DNA of 64,000 nt from Prevotella sp. E15-22. GTDB taxonomy: Bacteria; Bacteroidota; Bacteroidia; Bacteroidales; Bacteroidaceae. The notes under the pieces were generated by a model. That model saw only the letters and a list, made by a program, of their open reading frames with translations. It searched no databases and was not told where the DNA came from. Every line of letters starts with the position of its first letter. Position 1 is the stretch's first letter. Both the position numbers and the translations under genes were made by a program. Positions 48,139-57,817 of the stretch are shown here, piece after piece. The stretch is from assembly GCF_023204875.1 (NCBI RefSeq), contig NZ_CP096247.1:1922001-1986000 (forward strand). The letters are read 5' to 3'.

Positions 48139-48202
48139 TAAAATAAAATTGTAATCCGAAAATGTTTTCCACTTTTTATTTGCCTATCTCAGAAAAAAGG
48201 CG

Positions 48203-48211
48203 TACCTTTGC
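48203..48211 (+). promoter_or_regulatory. -7 box for the HU-SPOR gene
   Basis: TACCTTTGC, only 4 bases from the GTG start at 48216. Transcription must begin at or near the start codon, so this mRNA is probably leaderless. It excludes the longer frame beginning at 48162. Confidence 0.7.
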
Positions 48212-48215
48212 ACTC

Positions 48216-49214
48216 GTGATTGAACTTGAAAGACATATAGAGATTTTGTTGCTCAGCAACGATTGCGTCATCGTCCCCGATTTAGGTGGTTTCATGGCGC
48301 ATCATGTTGAGGCACGTTATGACGTAGAAGACGGAACCTTCCTGCCTCCTCTGCGCACATTGGGATTCAATCCACAACTCAAGATGAACGACTCACTTCT
48401 TGTACAGTCGTACATCGAGGCCTACGACATCAGTTATCCAGAAGCCTTACGCCGCATTGAAGCTGAGGTTGCTGAAATCCGTCAGCACTTGGAGACCGAT
48501 GGCCAATTTGAATTAAATGACATCGGTATTCTTCGCTTGAACGAAGAAGGACATATCACCTTTGAACCATGTGAAGCAGGCATTCTAACCCCTAATCTCT
48601 ATGGATTAAGTTCGTTCGAGATGCCGTTTATCGCCGCAAAAGAAGAAAAAGAGCAGCCCACAGAACAGGAAAAGCCAGCTGAGGTTATTTCGCTCAACAG
48701 TGTTCCTAAAGAAGAAAGTATCACTATCAAGATGTCATGGCTTCGCAACATAGCTGCCGTCGCAGCAGCAGTTGTTGCATTCCTCATGATTAGTTCACCC
48801 ATATCAAATAGTGACATAAACACCCAGGTTCAGCAAAGCGCCTTCTTCCCTATTGGCTCACTGCACACTAAGGCAACGACTGACATAAAGTCTCTTCCTG
48901 CAGCCGCCAAACAAGTTACACCTACTGACAGTACGTCATCTGACATCGTAACTGTTTCTAAAGAAGAAGCGAAGCCCATTGTCCCCACATATTGCATCGT
49001 ACTGGCTAGTCAAGTCAACAGACAGAACGCCATGGACTTTATTAGCCAGCTCAACAAGCAAGGTTATGAGGAAGTTCGCTTGTTGGAGACAAAGATTCTT
49101 CGTGTGGTCTATGGCACCTACAACTCTGAAGATGAAGCCCAGAATGTTCTACGCACACTGCGTTCGCAGAGTAAACATTTTGCAGAGGCTTGGATTATGG
49201 AAGTAAAACAGTAA
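48216..49214 (+). CDS. HU-CCDC81-like and SPOR domain protein, GTG start
   Basis: A 332-residue membrane protein. Residues 1-135 form an HU/CCDC81-type domain (IELERHIEILLLSNDCVIVP onwards). A single membrane segment is near 176-196 (SWLRNIAAVAAAVVAFLMI). The C-terminal SPOR domain, about 258-332 (YCIVLASQVNRQNAMDFISQ), binds denuded septal peptidoglycan in known examples. N-in, C-out topology would put the HU-like part in the cytoplasm and SPOR in the periplasm. The GTG start is chosen because the longer frame overlaps the promoter. The FHA gene follows after 24 bases. Confidence 0.88.
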   Translation: MIELERHIEILLLSNDCVIVPDLGGFMAHHVEARYDVEDGTFLPPLRTLGFNPQLKMNDSLLVQSYIEAYDISYPEALRRIEAEVAEIRQHLETDGQFELNDIGILRLNEEGHITFEPCEAGILTPNLYGLSSFEMPFIAAKEEKEQPTEQEKPAEVISLNSVPKEESITIKMSWLRNIAAVAAAVVAFLMISSPISNSDINTQVQQSAFFPIGSLHTKATTDIKSLPAAAKQVTPTDSTSSDIVTVSKEEAKPIVPTYCIVLASQVNRQNAMDFISQLNKQGYEEVRLLETKILRVVYGTYNSEDEAQNVLRTLRSQSKHFAEAWIMEVKQ

Positions 49215-49238: not shown

Positions 49239-49769
49239 ATGAAGCGAGTACGCTGTCCCAAATGTGACAATTACATCACATTCGACGAAACAAAATACAC
49301 GGCAGGTCAGTCGTTAGTTTTTCAGTGCACCGAATGCGGCAAGCAGTTTGGTATCCGCATTGGCGTATCGAAGTTGCGCGACACCCAAAAAGTTGAGAAC
49401 AACACACAAACTACCGACTGCGAATCACAGTTCGGCACAATCACTGTTATTGAGAACGTGTTCCATTACAAGCAGGTTATCCCCCTCCAGATGGGCGATA
49501 ACGTCATTGGCCGTTACCAGAAGGGCAACCCCATCAACACACCTTTCGAGACCGTTGACCCCAGCGTCGACCTCAACCACTGCACACTCAACATCAGCCG
49601 TGACAAGAAAGGCCAGCTAAAGTACACACTTCGCGACAACAACAGCAACACTGGCACCTTTGTCGACAATGTAGAGATACCACCACGCGAAAGACGCGTC
49701 ATTGAGAATGGCACCCTCTTTACTATTGGTGCCACTAGTATTATCTTAAAGACAACAGAAGAGGAATAA
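49239..49769 (+). CDS. Zinc-ribbon and FHA domain protein
   Basis: A 176-residue cytoplasmic protein. The N-terminal zinc ribbon has two Cys pairs, RCPKCDNY at residues 5-12 and QCTECGKQF near 30-38. The FHA domain covers about 80-172, with DNVIGRYQKGNPI near 86-98, LNHCTLNIS near 113-121 and NNSNTGTFVDN near 134-144. FHA domains bind phosphothreonine peptides. It follows the HU-SPOR gene closely, suggesting a shared role in envelope or division signalling, which is inference. A terminator follows. Confidence 0.88.
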   Translation: MKRVRCPKCDNYITFDETKYTAGQSLVFQCTECGKQFGIRIGVSKLRDTQKVENNTQTTDCESQFGTITVIENVFHYKQVIPLQMGDNVIGRYQKGNPINTPFETVDPSVDLNHCTLNISRDKKGQLKYTLRDNNSNTGTFVDNVEIPPRERRVIENGTLFTIGATSIILKTTEEE

Positions 49770-51524: not shown

Positions 51525-51893
51525 ATGAAAAAGAAGATTCTAATACTGGACGACAAAGAGACCATTGCAAAGGTTCTCTCTATTTATTTAATGAGCGACT
51601 ACGATGTACAGTGGCTCCCCGACGGCTTGCAAGGTGTCAAATGGCTTCAGGCTGGCAACACGCCCGATCTGATTATCTCAGACATCCGTATGCCAGGCAT
51701 GCGTGGTGACGACTTCTTGGAATGGATCAAGCAGAACGAGTTATTCCGCCACATTCCCGTCATTATGCTGTCCAGCGAAGACTCAACCAGCGAACGCATT
51801 CGTCTTCTGGAGATTGGTGCCGAGGACTATATTGTGAAACCCTTCAACCCCATGGAACTTAAGATTCGCGTTAAAAAGATTCTGCCGAATTAA
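51525..51893 (+). CDS. Stand-alone response-regulator receiver protein
   Basis: A 122-residue single receiver domain with no output domain. Key residues are intact: acidic pair in ILDDKE near 7-12, phospho-acceptor Asp in IISDIRMPG near 51-59, switch Ser/Thr in IMLSSED near 82-88, and Lys in IVKPF near 106-110. It should be phosphorylated by a histidine kinase not encoded in the window. It is 9 bases from the sugar transferase gene, so it is translated with it. Output must be through protein contact, perhaps with the adjacent transferase or exporter, which is inference. Confidence 0.9.
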   Translation: MKKKILILDDKETIAKVLSIYLMSDYDVQWLPDGLQGVKWLQAGNTPDLIISDIRMPGMRGDDFLEWIKQNELFRHIPVIMLSSEDSTSERIRLLEIGAEDYIVKPFNPMELKIRVKKILPN

Positions 51894-51902
51894 CCACAAG
51901 TT

Positions 51903-53105
51903 ATGATAGGTGTCGTATATTTAGGAAATAATCCCCAGACAGAAGAGCGTTTAAGGTATCTGCCTGGCAGAGATGTCAAATTCACGAAAAGTCATTTTGA
52001 GGCCGCAGAGGAAAGTAAGTCTCATAATAACGGCGACCACTTTATACTTTTCTTGGAGAAAGGTAATCTCACTGACGATATTGCTGCAATAACCTACTTA
52101 CGAAAGGTTTGCAGCAGCATCTATATTATCCTATTGACAAGTCCGTTAGACCCTGAGGAGCGCAAGGCTTATCAGCAAAGCGGCATTAACGACACACTCG
52201 ACATCAACGCACCTGTTACGCTCATCAACAAGAAATTACAATTCATCGAAGAACGTGAGTCAGTTCTTTTCGACACCAATATCTCGAAAAGACGCGTCCT
52301 CCAGTTTAAGATACCCATTTGGAAGCGCACGTTCGACATCATCTTCTCTATTTTAGCCATTATTATCACGTCTCCCATCATGATAGCAACAGTTATTGCC
52401 ATCAAGTTGGAGAGCAAAGGCCCTGCCCTATTCAAGTCAAAGCGCGTTGGAACCAACTACAAGGTATTCGAGTTCTTGAAGTTCCGTTCCATGTATACAG
52501 ATGCAGAAAAACGCCTGAAGGAGTTGAGTGCATCCCAAAATCAGTATGGCAAGAATACTGAGGATAACGACGATGCCGTCTTCACCACCAATTCTCAGCA
52601 AGAACAAGTCGAAGAGCCCAAGGACATGGACATGGATATCGAAATGATGATTGGCGACGAAGAAGTGATGCTGATTGGCGACGACTTTGTGGTATCTGAG
52701 AGTGATTTCAGCAAAAAGAAGGAAGAAGAGATTAACAACGCATTCGTCAAAATTGAGAACGACCCCCGTGTCACAAAGGTTGGTCGTTTCATTCGCAAAT
52801 ATAGCATTGACGAACTCCCTCAGTTCTTCAATATTCTGAAAGGCGACATGTCCATCGTGGGCAACCGTCCCCTCCCCCTTTACGAAGCCGAGAAACTCAC
52901 CATCGACTCCAGCATCGACCGTTTTGTGGCCCCTGCTGGACTCACAGGTCTTTGGCAGGTAGAGGAAAGAGGTAAGGGTGGCAAGATGTCGGCAGAAGAA
53001 CGCAAGCAACTTGATATCCTGTACGCGCAGACATATAACTTCGGAATGGACATGAAGATTCTTTTCCGTACCCTCTTTGCGTTTGTACAAAAGGAAAATG
53101 TCTAA
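51903..53105 (+). CDS. Polyprenyl-phosphate sugar-1-phosphate transferase with degenerate receiver-like N-terminus
   Basis: A 400-residue initiating transferase that should load the first sugar phosphate onto undecaprenyl phosphate. Residues about 1-120 follow a receiver pattern, but Glu52 (FLEKG) replaces the phospho-acceptor Asp and the usual KP is DINAP. One membrane segment is near 140-166. The PGT core follows (VGTNYKVFEFLKFRSMYTDA near 183-202, NDPRVTKVGRFIRKYSIDEL near 289-308, GNRPLPLYEAEKL near 324-336). An acidic insertion of about 80 residues (near 206-285, rich in Asp/Glu) interrupts the core between these motifs. The insertion is unusual for this family. Next gene is 19 bases away. 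Confidence 0.88.
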   Translation: MIGVVYLGNNPQTEERLRYLPGRDVKFTKSHFEAAEESKSHNNGDHFILFLEKGNLTDDIAAITYLRKVCSSIYIILLTSPLDPEERKAYQQSGINDTLDINAPVTLINKKLQFIEERESVLFDTNISKRRVLQFKIPIWKRTFDIIFSILAIIITSPIMIATVIAIKLESKGPALFKSKRVGTNYKVFEFLKFRSMYTDAEKRLKELSASQNQYGKNTEDNDDAVFTTNSQQEQVEEPKDMDMDIEMMIGDEEVMLIGDDFVVSESDFSKKKEEEINNAFVKIENDPRVTKVGRFIRKYSIDELPQFFNILKGDMSIVGNRPLPLYEAEKLTIDSSIDRFVAPAGLTGLWQVEERGKGGKMSAEERKQLDILYAQTYNFGMDMKILFRTLFAFVQKENV

Positions 53106-53124
53106 TTAGTCTTTTTGACAAAAC

Positions 53125-54087
53125 ATGTTTAGGAAAATAGCATTTACCCTCGTTGTCTCTGTATTCTGCGTTGGTGCTATGGCGCAGACAGCCGACGATA
53201 GTGGCATCAGTGCCGGATTCTTCGATTCCAGTAATGAGAAGGACCTTAATTTCTCAATGTTTAAGCTTCCGCCATTGTCAGTTCTGTTTGAGAATGCCAA
53301 GCAGAATCCCAATATTCTGTTATTAGCCAAGCAACAGGAAATGGCACAAGCAGAAGTTGCTAAACAGAAAAAACATATTTTCTCTTACGTCAATGGCAAT
53401 GCCAGCATGAGTTATGGCCTTACAGATATATGGAGTGGTTCCCAAGGCACTGGCTATGGCAGTGGCATGGTATGGCAGCCCCACTCTTCTGAACAAAGTT
53501 TTTGGAACATAGGTGTCAATATAAGTGTTCCTCTTGAGGACATTCTTGATTTAGGGCCATCCGTCAAACGCAAACGAATGGAAGTTGAGCAAGTACAGAT
53601 TCAAAAAGATGCCGCCTACGATCAATTAAAACTGCAGATTGTCACGCTCTATATCAAAATAACGAACAACCTAACGGCTCTAAAAACTGCAGGTGAGAAC
53701 GCAGCTGCTTATCAAGGCGCAGCATCTTTGAATGAGGTCGAATTTCACCATGGAAACATGGAAATCGAGTCATATGCTTACACAGGATTACAAGGTCAAG
53801 GCGCTGTTACGACATACCAATCCCTTCTCACAGAAATAACAACGGATATCGTCACTTTAGAGATTCTTACTCATACGCCCATCATTACAAATACAACAAC
53901 AGACATCACGTTAGATTCCTCTATCGAAAAGACAAAGAGACAGATTGCTCGTGAAAACAGAGCTGTTGAGAAGCGCATTAAGAAAGAGGCAAAAGAGGAA
54001 GAAAAACTTGAAAAGCAGCTAGAAAAGCAATCCGCCAAAGATGCTTTAAAGACAAGTGAACCTACTACTCCAACTCCAAAAGAATGA
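53125..54087 (+). CDS. TolC-like outer-membrane protein, shortened
   Basis: A 320-residue exported protein; signal peptide ends near GAMAQ (residue 21). Residues about 47-255 match an OEP/TolC-type helical hairpin: LSVLFENAKQNPNILLLAKQ near 51-70, beta-like GNASMSYGLTD near 90-100, and the SVPLEDILDLGPSVKRKRME region near 134-153. The C-terminus, about 270-320, is a highly charged Lys/Glu coiled coil (EKRIKKEAKEEEKLEKQLEK). TolC proteins are about 420-490 residues with two such hairpins, so this one looks like half a TolC. It could form a multimer or be a truncated exporter. A Wza-type OPX protein is not seen in the window. Confidence 0.78.
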   Translation: MFRKIAFTLVVSVFCVGAMAQTADDSGISAGFFDSSNEKDLNFSMFKLPPLSVLFENAKQNPNILLLAKQQEMAQAEVAKQKKHIFSYVNGNASMSYGLTDIWSGSQGTGYGSGMVWQPHSSEQSFWNIGVNISVPLEDILDLGPSVKRKRMEVEQVQIQKDAAYDQLKLQIVTLYIKITNNLTALKTAGENAAAYQGAASLNEVEFHHGNMEIESYAYTGLQGQGAVTTYQSLLTEITTDIVTLEILTHTPIITNTTTDITLDSSIEKTKRQIARENRAVEKRIKKEAKEEEKLEKQLEKQSAKDALKTSEPTTPTPKE

Positions 54088-54103
54088 AATAATAATAGTC
54101 GAT

Positions 54104-56281
54104 ATGGATTTATTTAGATATTTAGTTAGATTTCTATATAAAATCAGGTGGTATCTGGTCATACTACCTATGATTGCCATGATTATTGCTTGGTTATCCA
54201 CACGAAATATGGAACGCGAATACGATGCTAAAACAACCATATACACAGGTATGATTACCGGCTATAATATTGAAGGCGGATCGGGTACAGCAGGTGGCAA
54301 TCAGCAGACCAACATTGCTAACTTGATGCTTATTATTCAAACCGACAATACCATTCATGAGGTAGCCCTTCGTTTGTTTGCCCGTTGCATGATGTATGGC
54401 AATCGAAGCAAGGATAACAACTATATCTCAGCTGAGCATTTCCGTTTACTTGATGCTAGTGTACCAGCTGAAGTCAAGGCGCTCATCAATCACAATAGCG
54501 AACAGGAAACCTATCGAAACCTCAAAGCATATGAGAAACCGACACAAGACAACTACCTTTTTGGTCTATTAAACTTCCATCCTTATTTTAGTATTAATAG
54601 CATTACAAGTCGCCTGAAAGTTTTACAATTAGAGTATAGTGATATTATTGATATCTCTTATTCAGCTAACGACCCAGGCATTTGCTATAACACGTTGGAC
54701 ATTCTGAATGATGTATTTGCTAAGCAATACCGTGATTTGCGCTATGGCGAGACGTTAAATGTTATCAAGTTCTTTGAAAAAGAGGTTGCTCGTTTGTACA
54801 AAGTGCTTACTGACGCAGAAAATGACCTTATCAAATATAACGTTAAGCATCGTATCATTAACTATGGTGAGCAAACCAAGGTGTTAGCAGGACTTGAAGC
54901 ACAGCAACAAGTTAAGGATAACGAACTGCGCATGAACATTGCGACCACCGAAGCCTTGATTGCCTACCTCAAACGTCAATTAGGCGACCGCACCAGGATT
55001 ATCGAATCGAACCAAAACTTCACAAATTTGGTTCGTGACATCACCCGTTTGCAATCTCGTATTGCAAACCTAAAACTCATGAGTAGCGAGAACGGCGGCA
55101 ATAACAATGAAGCACAGATAGAATTGGCAAAAGCAGAACGTCAATTGAATGAAACAACGAAAAAAGTAAAAGAACTGACACAAACCCTAGAAGCCTCAAA
55201 CTATAGCACTGACACAGGTGTTAAAGCATCTGCTTTGATTGACCGTTGGTTGGAACAAGTACTGTTATTGGAACAAACAAAAGCAGAACTTGGCGCTCAG
55301 GACATCATGAAAGAAAATATCAATGAACAGTTTCTTTTCTATTCACCCATTGGAGCTACACTCGACCGTAAAGATCGTCATATTGGTTTCATCGAGACTA
55401 ACTATATTGAAATGCTAAGAGCGCTCAACTCTGCCCGTCTACGCCAGCGCAACCTTCAGATGTCAACAGCTGTACTACGCATTCTGAATCCACCTGTATT
55501 TCCACTTAATGCGCAGCCTACCAATCGTTTAATGACATTGTTAGGCTCATTTATGCTGACATTTGTATTCACGGCATTATACTTTTTTATCATCGAAATG
55601 CTCGACCGCACCCTTCGCGACCGCATGCGTTCTGAAAAGATTACAAATATACCCGTCATGGGCTGCTTCCCCAAGGAAAGCACCTTGCGTTATCGCCGAT
55701 TCAACAAGACCATCAGCGATATGGCTCTACGTCAACTCAGCAAGTCACTCCTGCCCCACTTTAAGGAAGGTCAACAGAACGTGCTTAACTTGTTGTCCAC
55801 CGATGCCGCCAACGGCAAGAGTTACCTGGCTCAAGAATTAGAGAATTATTGGCTTAGTCTTGGTTTGCAGATTCGCCGTCTTACCTATGATGAGGACTTC
55901 TTGGCCGAAGATAGCCGTTACCTTTTGGCAAAAGATATCAAGGACATCTGTCCTGATATAATGCCTAATGAGATTGCCATCATCGAATATCCAAACTTGG
56001 ATGACAACACCATCTCAAGTTCATTGTTGAACATGGGTACCGTCAATCTGATGATTACCCGTGCCAACCGTACATGGAAGGATGTTGACCAAAAAGCGCT
56101 CAAAGATATCGAGTCTCGTCTGGAGAATAAAGAAACACTCTTTATGTACCTCACCGAGGCCAGTCGTTATGCTGTAGAAGAGTTTGTGGGACAGTTGCCA
56201 CCATACACACGTTTCAACAACTTTGTCTATCGCATCTCTCAACTCGGCCTGACCGCTATCGAGAATAATCATGCCAAGTAA
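54104..56281 (+). CDS. Wzz/GumC-type chain-length protein with degraded BY-kinase-like domain
   Basis: A 725-residue inner-membrane protein. The first membrane segment is near 16-36 and the second near 473-493. Between them is a periplasmic Wzz-type coiled-coil domain with many Gln, Glu and Lys. The C-terminal 210 residues resemble the Wzc/CapB BY-kinase fold: LLSTDAANGKSYLAQEL near 563-579 keeps GKS of Walker A. However, the Walker B position reads AIIEYPNLDD near 625-634, where hhhhDxPP is expected, and no C-terminal Tyr cluster is present. It probably polymerises or sets chain length without kinase activity. MDLFRYLVRFL is the chosen start; the frame opens at 54056. It ends 3 bases before wzy. 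Confidence 0.84.
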   Translation: MDLFRYLVRFLYKIRWYLVILPMIAMIIAWLSTRNMEREYDAKTTIYTGMITGYNIEGGSGTAGGNQQTNIANLMLIIQTDNTIHEVALRLFARCMMYGNRSKDNNYISAEHFRLLDASVPAEVKALINHNSEQETYRNLKAYEKPTQDNYLFGLLNFHPYFSINSITSRLKVLQLEYSDIIDISYSANDPGICYNTLDILNDVFAKQYRDLRYGETLNVIKFFEKEVARLYKVLTDAENDLIKYNVKHRIINYGEQTKVLAGLEAQQQVKDNELRMNIATTEALIAYLKRQLGDRTRIIESNQNFTNLVRDITRLQSRIANLKLMSSENGGNNNEAQIELAKAERQLNETTKKVKELTQTLEASNYSTDTGVKASALIDRWLEQVLLLEQTKAELGAQDIMKENINEQFLFYSPIGATLDRKDRHIGFIETNYIEMLRALNSARLRQRNLQMSTAVLRILNPPVFPLNAQPTNRLMTLLGSFMLTFVFTALYFFIIEMLDRTLRDRMRSEKITNIPVMGCFPKESTLRYRRFNKTISDMALRQLSKSLLPHFKEGQQNVLNLLSTDAANGKSYLAQELENYWLSLGLQIRRLTYDEDFLAEDSRYLLAKDIKDICPDIMPNEIAIIEYPNLDDNTISSSLLNMGTVNLMITRANRTWKDVDQKALKDIESRLENKETLFMYLTEASRYAVEEFVGQLPPYTRFNNFVYRISQLGLTAIENNHAK

Positions 56282-56284
56282 CGA

Positions 56285-57817
56285 ATGATAAAATCATTCA
56301 CATCATACAACAGTAATATCAGAGGAAGAGTCATTGTACTCTTTCTTCTGTTTCTGTTAGCCATCTATCTTCTAGCGACATCAGGGCTTACACCTTTTGC
56401 TGCAATATGTATGATTCCCGCTATAGGCCTATTCCTATTTCTTTCTTTTAAGCAACAAAATGCACTTTTTTGGTATATTTTTGCAATGAACTACTTTGTA
56501 ATGGGGCTACAACGATATGATTACATACCTGTCCCCGTTACGGTAGTCACTGTATTACCACAGTTACTGTTAGTGATGACTCTCATTATAATCCCAAAGA
56601 AAGGACAAAATTCCCTCGCCAATCCTATGCTTTTGGGTCTTTTACTTTGGACTTTCTATTTAGGAATTCAAGTCTTCAACGAGACTTGTGGATTGCCAGT
56701 AAGTATTGGGGATTGGCTAACCAATATGAACTTTTATGCGTTTTATTTCATCTTTGCATTTGTACTTGTTAGTAAAATCATCAATACTCCTGAGAATATC
56801 ATGCGTTTTTTACGCATTTGGGCATGGTTCTCCATTGTCGCAACAATTTGGGCTTGGCGTCAAAAAACGTTCGGCTGGGATCAAGCAGAATTACGTTGGT
56901 TAATTGGCGGTGCCATGCGTACACACATCATTGGTGGCTCCATACGCTATTTTTCGTTCTTCTCAGATGCTGCCACCTTTGGTTGTAACATGGGCGCGGC
57001 TGCCGCTCTTTTTTACATCACAAGTCTCACAAGTAAACTTAGGAAAGATAAAATATTATTTGCTATCACCGGAATCTGTTGCACCTATAGTTTCTTTGCA
57101 TCAGGAACCCGTTCTGGTTTGGTTTGCTTCATGGCAGGTATTGCCCTATACGTTTTCTTAGCTAGATCTGCCAAATTAACAGCAACAGTCTTGCTTCTTG
57201 GAGGAGCATTCGTTTTCATTCTTGCATTTACAAATATCGGTCAGGGCAACATGCAAATACGTCGTATGCGCTCAGCATTCAACACTAAAGACGCTTCACT
57301 CAATGTCCGTGATTTAAACAAACAGGCCTTAAAGAAGTACCTCAAAGATGCCCCTTATGGTATGGGTATCAATATTGATGAATCTAGGATTCCAAGATTC
57401 AACAAATTTAAAGTAGTATATGAAACCTCCAATGACTCTACATATGTGTTCTTTTGGCAACGTACTGGTATCGTAGGCGTCTACGTATTTGCAGCCATGA
57501 ATATCATCATCCTATTGGGTGGGTGCTTCATTTCCTTCTTTAAACTACAGAACAAAGCTTGTAAAGGCATTTCAGCGGCTATTTGTTGTGGTTTTATTGG
57601 CATCCAAGCAGGAGGATATGCAAACCATATTCTACTTCAATATCCGAACATCATACTATTCTATGGCGGCATGGCCATTGTCTATTTACTTCCTGCCATA
57701 GAGCCTGAATATATTGCATACGAAGAAAAAATATATACAAAGCTAGAAGAGAAAAAACGTCTTAAGAAAGAACAGCAAGAAAAATCTAGAGTTAAGAAAC
57801 TACTGTCATGGACATAA
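56285..57817 (+). CDS. O-antigen polymerase / ligase-like membrane protein (Wzy)
   Basis: A 510-residue integral membrane protein with about ten hydrophobic segments across residues 12-480, and a Lys/Glu-rich cytoplasmic tail (about 480-510). The large loop near 330-390 holds conserved-looking MGINIDESRIPR. Wzy/O-antigen ligase family proteins (PF04932) have low sequence conservation; assignment rests on topology and position after the Wzz-like gene. Its end overlaps the next glycosyltransferase gene by 10 bases, indicating coupling. Confidence 0.82.
   Translation: MIKSFTSYNSNIRGRVIVLFLLFLLAIYLLATSGLTPFAAICMIPAIGLFLFLSFKQQNALFWYIFAMNYFVMGLQRYDYIPVPVTVVTVLPQLLLVMTLIIIPKKGQNSLANPMLLGLLLWTFYLGIQVFNETCGLPVSIGDWLTNMNFYAFYFIFAFVLVSKIINTPENIMRFLRIWAWFSIVATIWAWRQKTFGWDQAELRWLIGGAMRTHIIGGSIRYFSFFSDAATFGCNMGAAAALFYITSLTSKLRKDKILFAITGICCTYSFFASGTRSGLVCFMAGIALYVFLARSAKLTATVLLLGGAFVFILAFTNIGQGNMQIRRMRSAFNTKDASLNVRDLNKQALKKYLKDAPYGMGINIDESRIPRFNKFKVVYETSNDSTYVFFWQRTGIVGVYVFAAMNIIILLGGCFISFFKLQNKACKGISAAICCGFIGIQAGGYANHILLQYPNIILFYGGMAIVYLLPAIEPEYIAYEEKIYTKLEEKKRLKKEQQEKSRVKKLLSWT

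Follow-up and report, generated by a model that had tools for sequence, protein, structure and literature searches.

Organization of the locus

The sequence analyzed here, referred to as the window, is a stretch of 64,000 nucleotides from Prevotella sp. E15-22. The parts of the exopolysaccharide locus are given below by their positions within the window; all listed parts are on the + strand.

51525..51893, +, stand-alone receiver (REC), 122 aa; Pfam PF00072 Response_reg, 92.8 bits
51903..53105, +, initiating sugar-phosphate transferase, monotopic (PGT), 400 aa; PF02397 Bac_transf, 200 bits (cut-off 27)
51903..52277, +, N-terminal domain of the PGT (NTD), residues 1-125, predicted pseudo-receiver; G8 and E52 at the positions of REC D9 and D53
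52518..52727, +, acidic insert without cysteine within the PGT catalytic domain, about residues 206-275; the Bac_transf match is split there, and the alignment places it
53125..54087, +, TolC/OEP-like outer-membrane protein, single-repeat, 320 aa; PF02321, 46.7 bits, one stretch (57-207)
54104..56281, +, Wzz-type chain-length protein with a P-loop domain; TIGR03007, 66.6 bits, under the cut-off of 278.85
56285..57817, +, Wzy polymerase / O-antigen ligase family; PF04932, 42.1 bits
57808..58683, +, glycosyltransferase family 2; PF00535, 72.5 bits
58668..59909, +, membrane-type glycosyltransferase family 2 (start approximate); PF13641, 60.9 bits
59906..61105, +, membrane-type glycosyltransferase family 2; PF13641, 72.3 bits
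61102..62271, +, glycosyltransferase family 1/4; PF00534, 116.8 bits
62400..63941, +, Wzx-like flippase; NCBIfam WZX_like, 32.3 bits, under the cut-off of 300, with no Pfam match

The ATG at 54104 is more likely to be the Wzz start than the GTG of the longest ORF. The Pfam matches and the predicted fold bear out the initial annotation in placing an intact stand-alone receiver 9 bases upstream of a PGT with a degenerate-receiver N-terminus, and the single OEP match agrees with the short TolC-like protein described after it.

The receiver, the pseudo-receiver domain and the catalytic part

The REC in the window has the complete set of receiver residues (acidic pair D9 D10, phospho-acceptor D53, S83 and K105) and is without an output domain. 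Among its relatives, K105 is retained in 90/90 sequences and D53 in 84/90. The six RECs that lack D53 count against gating; they include two with Glu (L133 and L141) and two that are broken or mis-assigned frames (L050 and L121).

The NTD of the window PGT matches no Pfam family when searched alone, and Response_reg is matched by 40 of 73 aligned NTDs. A profile built from 31 degenerate NTDs only retrieved 16 PDB sequences at E<=1, all of them named as response regulators, CheY homologues or (hybrid) histidine kinases, and hhalign aligned the NTDs with the adjoining RECs at a probability of 93. Structure prediction had been set beforehand as the refuting test for this domain; the AlphaFold2 model (pLDDT 87.6) has a receiver fold, and its top PDB matches are receivers (Z up to 16.6). 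The window NTD has Gly-Asn at the positions of the acidic pair and Glu at that of the phospho-acceptor, and relatives are similar (Gly at the D9 position in 76/85, Glu at the D53 position in 62/85). By its predicted fold, the NTD is thus a degenerate receiver without a phospho-acceptor, i.e., a pseudo-receiver.

In front of its catalytic domain the PGT has about 138 residues, and its match to TIGR03025 begins only at profile position 252. The DX12P motif (D145..P158) and D303 E304 are invariant among 39 aligned sequences including the window; according to PMC12802240, these are the re-entrant helix motif and the catalytic dyad, respectively. The catalytic motifs are intact. The acidic insert is present in other lineages in a Cys4 version.

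Conservation of the REC-PGT pair

The REC-PGT pair is conserved across Bacteroidota. Lack of such conservation was the other refuting condition set beforehand, so neither condition overturned the initial annotation. A REC lies directly upstream of 80/82 testable PGTs of at least 350 aa (84 minus two at contig ends), and of 72/73 long PGTs in a second set that overlaps the first. As a control, other PGT genes from genomes of the same family were inspected, and none of 20 has a REC within about 8 kb, so the adjacency is beyond chance. Long PGTs with no REC nearby are L068, L143/L299 and L259.

Among PGTs of at most 320 aa, 13 were counted with an upstream REC (9/25 testable plus 4/7), and 19/32 testable ones are without. 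In L121 and L210, two of the 13, the PGT is a long one that has been broken, and what was counted as its upstream 'REC' is its own NTD. There remain at least 11 intact short PGTs that lack an NTD and are preceded by a REC-family gene (L028, L048, L134, L137, L139, L140, L214, L224 and L232, and in degenerate form L029 and L118), which indicates that the NTD is not always required for pairing with REC. L101 and L118 each have a short PGT side by side with two receiver-type genes, one canonical and the other a degenerate member of the REC family.

Comparison with Wzc/Wza-type systems

With its Wzy, Wzx-like and Wzz-type proteins the locus resembles Wzc/Wza-type capsule systems; it differs in that the window contains no match to the BY-kinase family and no Poly_export gene. 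The places of the Wza-type exporter (PF02563 Poly_export) in this genome are two, near 0.91 and 1.07 Mb, and the genome's single BY-kinase above cut-off lies together with a Poly_export gene near 1.07 Mb.

The Wzz protein had been described as carrying a degraded Wzc-like kinase domain. No match to TIGR01007 was found in the window (this family-score test covers this genome only), and none of 41 aligned Wzz proteins, the window's included, has a Tyr-rich C-terminal tail (the window protein has three Tyr in its last 40 aa, with no cluster). An altered Wzc-like domain is thus no peculiarity of this locus. Walker A' and Walker B patterns were also tried on the Wzz domain; a strict Walker A' is absent from 41/41 Wzz proteins and Walker B from 40/41. 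Since the genome's real BY-kinase failed both patterns too, the Walker motifs were rejected, which leaves just the family score and the Tyr tail as evidence.

The proposal that the receiver substitutes for Wzc control is not favored: at some loci with the REC-PGT pair no Wzz turned up within 3.5 kb (e.g. L198 of B. fragilis), which ties the receiver to the PGT and not to a replacement of Wzc.

Candidate kinases

None of the genome's 35 HATPase hits lies in the window. In relatives, histidine kinases are found near the REC-PGT pair, some of them directly upstream. Hybrid kinases directly precede REC on the same strand at L285-L287, and seven of eight hybrids scanned have an Hpt match (that of L297 is below the Pfam cut-off; L084 has none). 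The Hpt search gave no matches in this genome, so an HPt relay is unsupported here. REC-histidine kinase (REC-HK) proteins immediately precede REC at L045 and L046; at L201, L205, L295 and L296 they lie 1.2-2.0 kb upstream of the PGT. When these six were compared with 30 of the 35 HATPase proteins in this genome, all had the same best match, an orphan REC-HisKA-HATPase protein at 1.65 Mb (G000:C1:1651024-1652172), 323 kb from the window PGT. This REC-HK is the best candidate for the kinase partner of the window REC.

In 11 of the 46 genomes that have both kinase and PGT, a homologue of the candidate lies at most 20 kb from the PGT, and in 17 at most 45 kb; in the other 29 it is not within 45 kb, at least 10 of them only through differing contigs. 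The 46 comprise 35 genomes with kinase and module (22 from the family and 13 from the order; same contig in 21, <=20 kb in 11, <=45 kb in 17) and 11 genomes of the order in which the kinase match is weaker; in 10 of these, kinase and PGT are on different contigs, and in one (G405) they are 726 kb apart.

We also considered the phylogenetic profile. Of 151 family genomes, 26 have the REC-HK, 24 the module and 22 both (Fisher 2.5e-20; 22 was not reached in any of 20000 within-genus shuffles); among 295 order genomes the numbers are 63 (kinase, E<=1e-60), 56 (module, E<=1e-30) and 26 (both). A control kinase (hybrid HK, C1:1237887) is found in 20/151 family genomes, and 20/20 are module carriers, so co-occurrence is not specific and was set aside as evidence. 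Linkage to the PGT does separate the REC-HK from the control, which in its 20 genomes shares a contig with the module in 10 and lies within 20 kb in none and within 45 kb in five. In four of these five, the control kinase is 2-5 kb from the REC-HK, and the control is thus not fully independent.

Comparison with known receiver-PGT systems

In Myxococcus xanthus, phosphorylated EpsW activates the initiating PGT EpsZ (mBio 2025, PMC12802240; EpsW is also covered in PMC4671073). As told in PMC12802240, EpsZ is a large monoPGT with four TM helices and a DUF, large monotopic PGTs work as dimers, and conservation of EpsW/EpsZ was studied in myxobacteria; the main text of that paper has no word beginning with 'Bacteroid'. 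Going by that account, both systems link a stand-alone receiver with an intact phospho-Asp to the PGT that initiates a Wzx/Wzy exopolysaccharide pathway, and in both control is proposed at the protein level; in the Prevotella PGT, a predicted receiver-fold NTD replaces the TM bundle and DUF of EpsZ. The window proteins score below the equivalog cut-offs for EpsW (REC, 60.7 bits; cut-off 200) and EpsZ (PGT, 161 bits; cut-off 800). Small monoPGTs with receiver domains, which share with our PGT a receiver domain within a small monoPGT, come from O'Toole et al. (2021, PNAS) as told in PMC12802240.

Among the matches listed from the open-licence PMC literature, which included EpsW/EpsZ papers, no title or start of an abstract describes the Bacteroidota REC-PGT pair. 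Since the EpsW/EpsZ principle was published in 2025, the initial annotation went too far in suggesting that switching by protein-level two-component signalling may be undescribed. What is new relative to EpsW/EpsZ is another PGT architecture, the pseudo-receiver and another phylum.

Proposed mechanism and alternatives

Of the switch by two-component signalling first suggested for this locus, protein-level control of the PGT is the best-supported part; 'undescribed' is too strong, and a role in place of Wzc is not favored. The locus is probably a Wzx/Wzy-type exopolysaccharide operon in which REC~P, acting on the PGT at the protein level, gates the first step. The stand-alone REC would be phosphorylated at D53 by a kinase encoded elsewhere, and REC~P would contact the neighboring monotopic PGT and change its activity. 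The pseudo-receiver NTD is the likeliest docking site, where REC~P and NTD would pair in the manner of receiver-receiver pairing. By analogy with EpsW/EpsZ, the effect may be stimulation rather than inhibition, and undecaprenyl phosphate would be committed to the polymer only with the signal on.

The pairing would have a likeness in PleD, which consists of a REC, a pseudo-REC adaptor and a diguanylate cyclase; in the Prevotella locus, REC stands as a protein of its own and a membrane PGT is the output. A model of a REC-NTD read-through fusion formed both folds (pTM 0.52) with no confident relative placement; its input was alignment A3 with 16 fused rows, as the displayed NTD-only rows of A2 had fallen onto the REC half. 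It aligned with PleD over both domains only at an rmsd of 13, so a PleD-like arrangement is not supported.

That model leaves room for REC to target the catalytic domain or PGT dimerization directly, with the NTD as an evolutionary remnant or mere scaffold. The REC-family genes ahead of the 11 intact short PGTs favor this reading, as do the mean pairwise identities among 28 close loci including the window (REC 87%, NTD 44%, catalytic part 78%): the NTD evolves fastest of the three, a poor fit with a tight, specific interface to a near-invariant REC. We still regard a catalytic-domain target as fairly unlikely, because nearly all long PGTs have a REC as compared to the 19/32 testable short ones that do not, because the predicted receiver fold of the NTD has been retained despite sequence decay, and because L101 and L118 look as if the role of a pseudo-receiver were still wanted there.

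Stand-alone receivers are often phosphate relays, and hybrid kinases with Hpt matches adjoin in several lineages, so REC could be an intermediate, i.e., an ordinary orphan receiver serving transcription, Wzz or a phosphorelay, whose adjacency to the PGT reflects operon co-expression only. This is distinctly improbable given an adjacency that is to this type of PGT (also where Wzz is missing within 3.5 kb), a REC lacking an output domain, the 0/20 control genes and the absence of Hpt matches in this genome. Very improbable is a constitutively homodimerizing NTD with which unphosphorylated REC competes or which it caps, inhibiting the PGT until phosphorylation releases it: Glu at the acceptor position of most NTDs could mimic an active state, and the dimeric action of large monotopic PGTs would suit it, but in the known precedent it is the phosphorylated form that activates (PMC12802240).

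Returning to gating through the NTD, a wider version is possible, although we hold it at somewhat less than even confidence: a phylum-wide 'split receiver pair' of Bacteroidota in which REC~P would heterodimerize with a pseudo-receiver grafted on a small monotopic PGT and so gate the commitment of undecaprenyl phosphate to surface polysaccharide. Its input would come from a REC-histidine kinase in Bacteroidales and, in other classes, from hybrid kinases that carry HPt domains, and it would have evolved independently of Myxococcus EpsW/EpsZ.

Undecaprenyl phosphate is common to glycoconjugate pathways, and which of them may start, and how this is regulated, is a question raised in PMC12802240. 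A REC beside the PGT, a worn-out receiver copy in the PGT and the recurrence of both in Bacteroidota suggest that switching of the sugar coat may act at the enzyme and not at the gene. The question can be tested directly in this module, whose two soluble parts are small, whose enzyme is of a known type and whose candidate kinase has been named. If the proposal is true, receiver control of PGTs would have arisen in more than one enzyme architecture, and many Bacteroidota from gut, rumen and environmental sources, a Bacteroides fragilis strain among them, would make this choice by two-component signalling at the first enzyme.

Operon layout

The contig holding the window is 3.34 Mb long, and an exopolysaccharide operon runs on its forward strand from 51525 as far as the window end, with genes in this order:

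51525-51893, +, REC, a stand-alone receiver
51903-53105, +, PGT, a monotopic phosphoglycosyl transferase (residues 1-125, the NTD, are a predicted pseudo-receiver; insert at 52518-52727)
53125-54087, +, OEP protein
then to the window end, +, Wzz, Wzy, three GT2, GT4 and a Wzx-like flippase

A complete receiver (92.8 bits) is followed 9 bases after its stop by the PGT start, as the initial annotation described; both genes are in the same frame. Named genomes that match the PGT best are of Prevotella type, several of rumen origin. Its catalytic domain is interrupted by an insert of about 65-75 residues (acidic and Cys-free in the window), and the DX12P motif (D145, P158) and DE dyad (D303, E304) are invariant among 39 aligned sequences. 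Judged by eye, the window also encodes a small protein (49239-49769) with a zinc-ribbon-like start and an FHA-like domain, adjoining a gene (48162-49214) that resembles HU/SPOR proteins.

Conservation of the REC-PGT pair

Homologues were found at family level in 24 of 151 genomes (E<=1e-40), at order level in 56 of 295 (E<=1e-30) and at phylum level in 46 of 395 (E<=1e-30), each count including the window's own genome. Two overlapping locus sets were compiled: 113 loci (all family and order rows and 26 phylum rows, not counting 19 phylum rows with weaker matches, re-fetched duplicates and the locus of the window itself), and the top 80 of at least 592 named loci. Of the PGTs of at least 350 aa in the 113-locus set, 80 are immediately preceded by a same-strand REC and 2 lack one (2 more sit at contig ends); in the named set REC is so placed for 72 of 73. 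PGTs of at most 320 aa have REC in this position in 9 of 25 testable cases of the first set (28 in all, 3 of them at contig ends) and in 4 of 7 of the named set; these 13 short PGTs with REC include two broken long ones (L121 and L210). A single 334-aa PGT lacks REC, and 0 of 20 control PGT genes from the family's genomes have any REC inside about 8 kb. The expectation that the pair is conserved across genomes thus held, and the pairing is real, conserved and mechanistically suggestive. OEP, Wzz and Wzy lie downstream in many of the longer loci; REC-PGT is also present where Wzz was not found inside 3.5 kb, e.g. in Bacteroides fragilis S82. That short locus (L198:5470-8713) continues with a glycosyltransferase-like ORF and a small third ORF, and a purH-like gene lies downstream of it (translations judged by eye).

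Several variants were seen. Two loci (L101:3988-5712 and L118:3888-5426) encode a canonical receiver, a degenerate REC-family protein and a short PGT as three separate genes, possibly a split version of the module. In L143 and L299:6331-7368, a 346-aa histidine kinase ORF occupies the receiver's place, 124 bases upstream of the pseudo-receiver PGT. A Flexithrix locus (L259:3904-6783) has a 960-aa PGT ORF whose long N-terminal region lacks Pfam matches. The PGT insert carries a zinc-ribbon-like CxxC..C..C pattern in many lineages (68 of 135 PGTs with a locatable insert; not locatable in 23 of 158, counted over the overlapping sets).

Wzz and OEP proteins

The P-loop is kept in 41 aligned Wzz proteins, the window's included (GK[ST] in 38), and none has a Tyr-rich tail (at most 4 Tyr per last 40 residues). 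The genome's BY-kinase, at 1.07 Mb, has such a tail and adjoins a Poly_export gene. Walker A' and B patterns were set aside as a test of Wzz because this real BY-kinase fails both too. The OEP repeat is single in the window's protein, as it is in each of the 9 tested relatives that encode OEP; a tenth ORF tested, taken from a locus whose short PGT lacks REC, is an acyltransferase. TolC has twice that repeat, and the single-repeat protein may assemble with more subunits than TolC.

Candidate kinases

None of the genome's 35 HATPase hits falls inside the window, and an Hpt search of this genome gave no match. A histidine kinase occurs anywhere in the locus in 29 of 131 loci longer than 7 kb. Several other lineages have hybrid kinases close to REC; in L285-L287 the kinase gene immediately precedes REC, on the same strand. 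Of 8 hybrids scanned, 7 combine HisKA, HATPase and REC domains with an Hpt match (below cut-off in L297), and the L084 hybrid lacks Hpt. A REC-HisKA-HATPase protein (REC-HK) is encoded immediately before REC in L045 and L046 (cut ORF); in L201, L205, L295 and L296 such a protein lies 1.2-2.0 kb upstream of PGT. When 30 of the genome's kinases were compared, the best match for all six was a 382-aa protein (contig 1, 1651024-1652172) adjoining rho- and ruvC-like genes (translations judged by eye). In 46 genomes that have both this kinase and the module (11 of them added by hand), the kinase lies no more than 20 kb from PGT in 11 and no more than 45 kb away in 17; in the window's genome the distance is 323 kb. 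Co-occurrence of this kinase with the module seemed overwhelming, but a control hybrid kinase (contig 1, 1237887) co-occurred too, so co-occurrence may show only that module carriers are kinase-rich. In four genomes (G121:C37, G135:C1, G062:C1 and G080:C1) REC-HK lies 2-5 kb from the control kinase and both lie 24-38 kb from PGT, hinting at one signalling cluster.

Proposed mechanism and relation to EpsW/EpsZ

The best account is that phosphorylated REC would gate PGT at the protein level; we infer the REC-PGT contact, the sign of its effect and the identity of the kinase. A model of a REC-NTD fusion (pTM 0.52) speaks neither for nor against an interface between the two domains. Pairwise identity over 28 close loci, the window's among them, is on average 87% in REC, 44% in NTD and 78% in the catalytic part; the correlation of these identities is 0.84 between REC and NTD, 0.55 between REC and the catalytic part, and 0.81 between NTD and the catalytic part. 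A near-invariant REC next to a fast NTD points to strong constraint on REC; this rate contrast alone does not mark NTD as REC's partner.

The initial annotation considered this mode of switching possibly undescribed, but there is a biochemical precedent in the Myxococcus xanthus receiver EpsW and initiating PGT EpsZ. According to PMC12802240, proximity labelling suggests that phosphorylated EpsW interacts with EpsZ, EpsW stimulates EpsZ activity in Salmonella, and conservation 'beyond' myxobacteria is proposed. Compared with that system, the Bacteroidota PGT has a pseudo-receiver in front, without the TM bundle or DUF. The kind of regulation is recently described rather than new, and the Bacteroidota form varies it.
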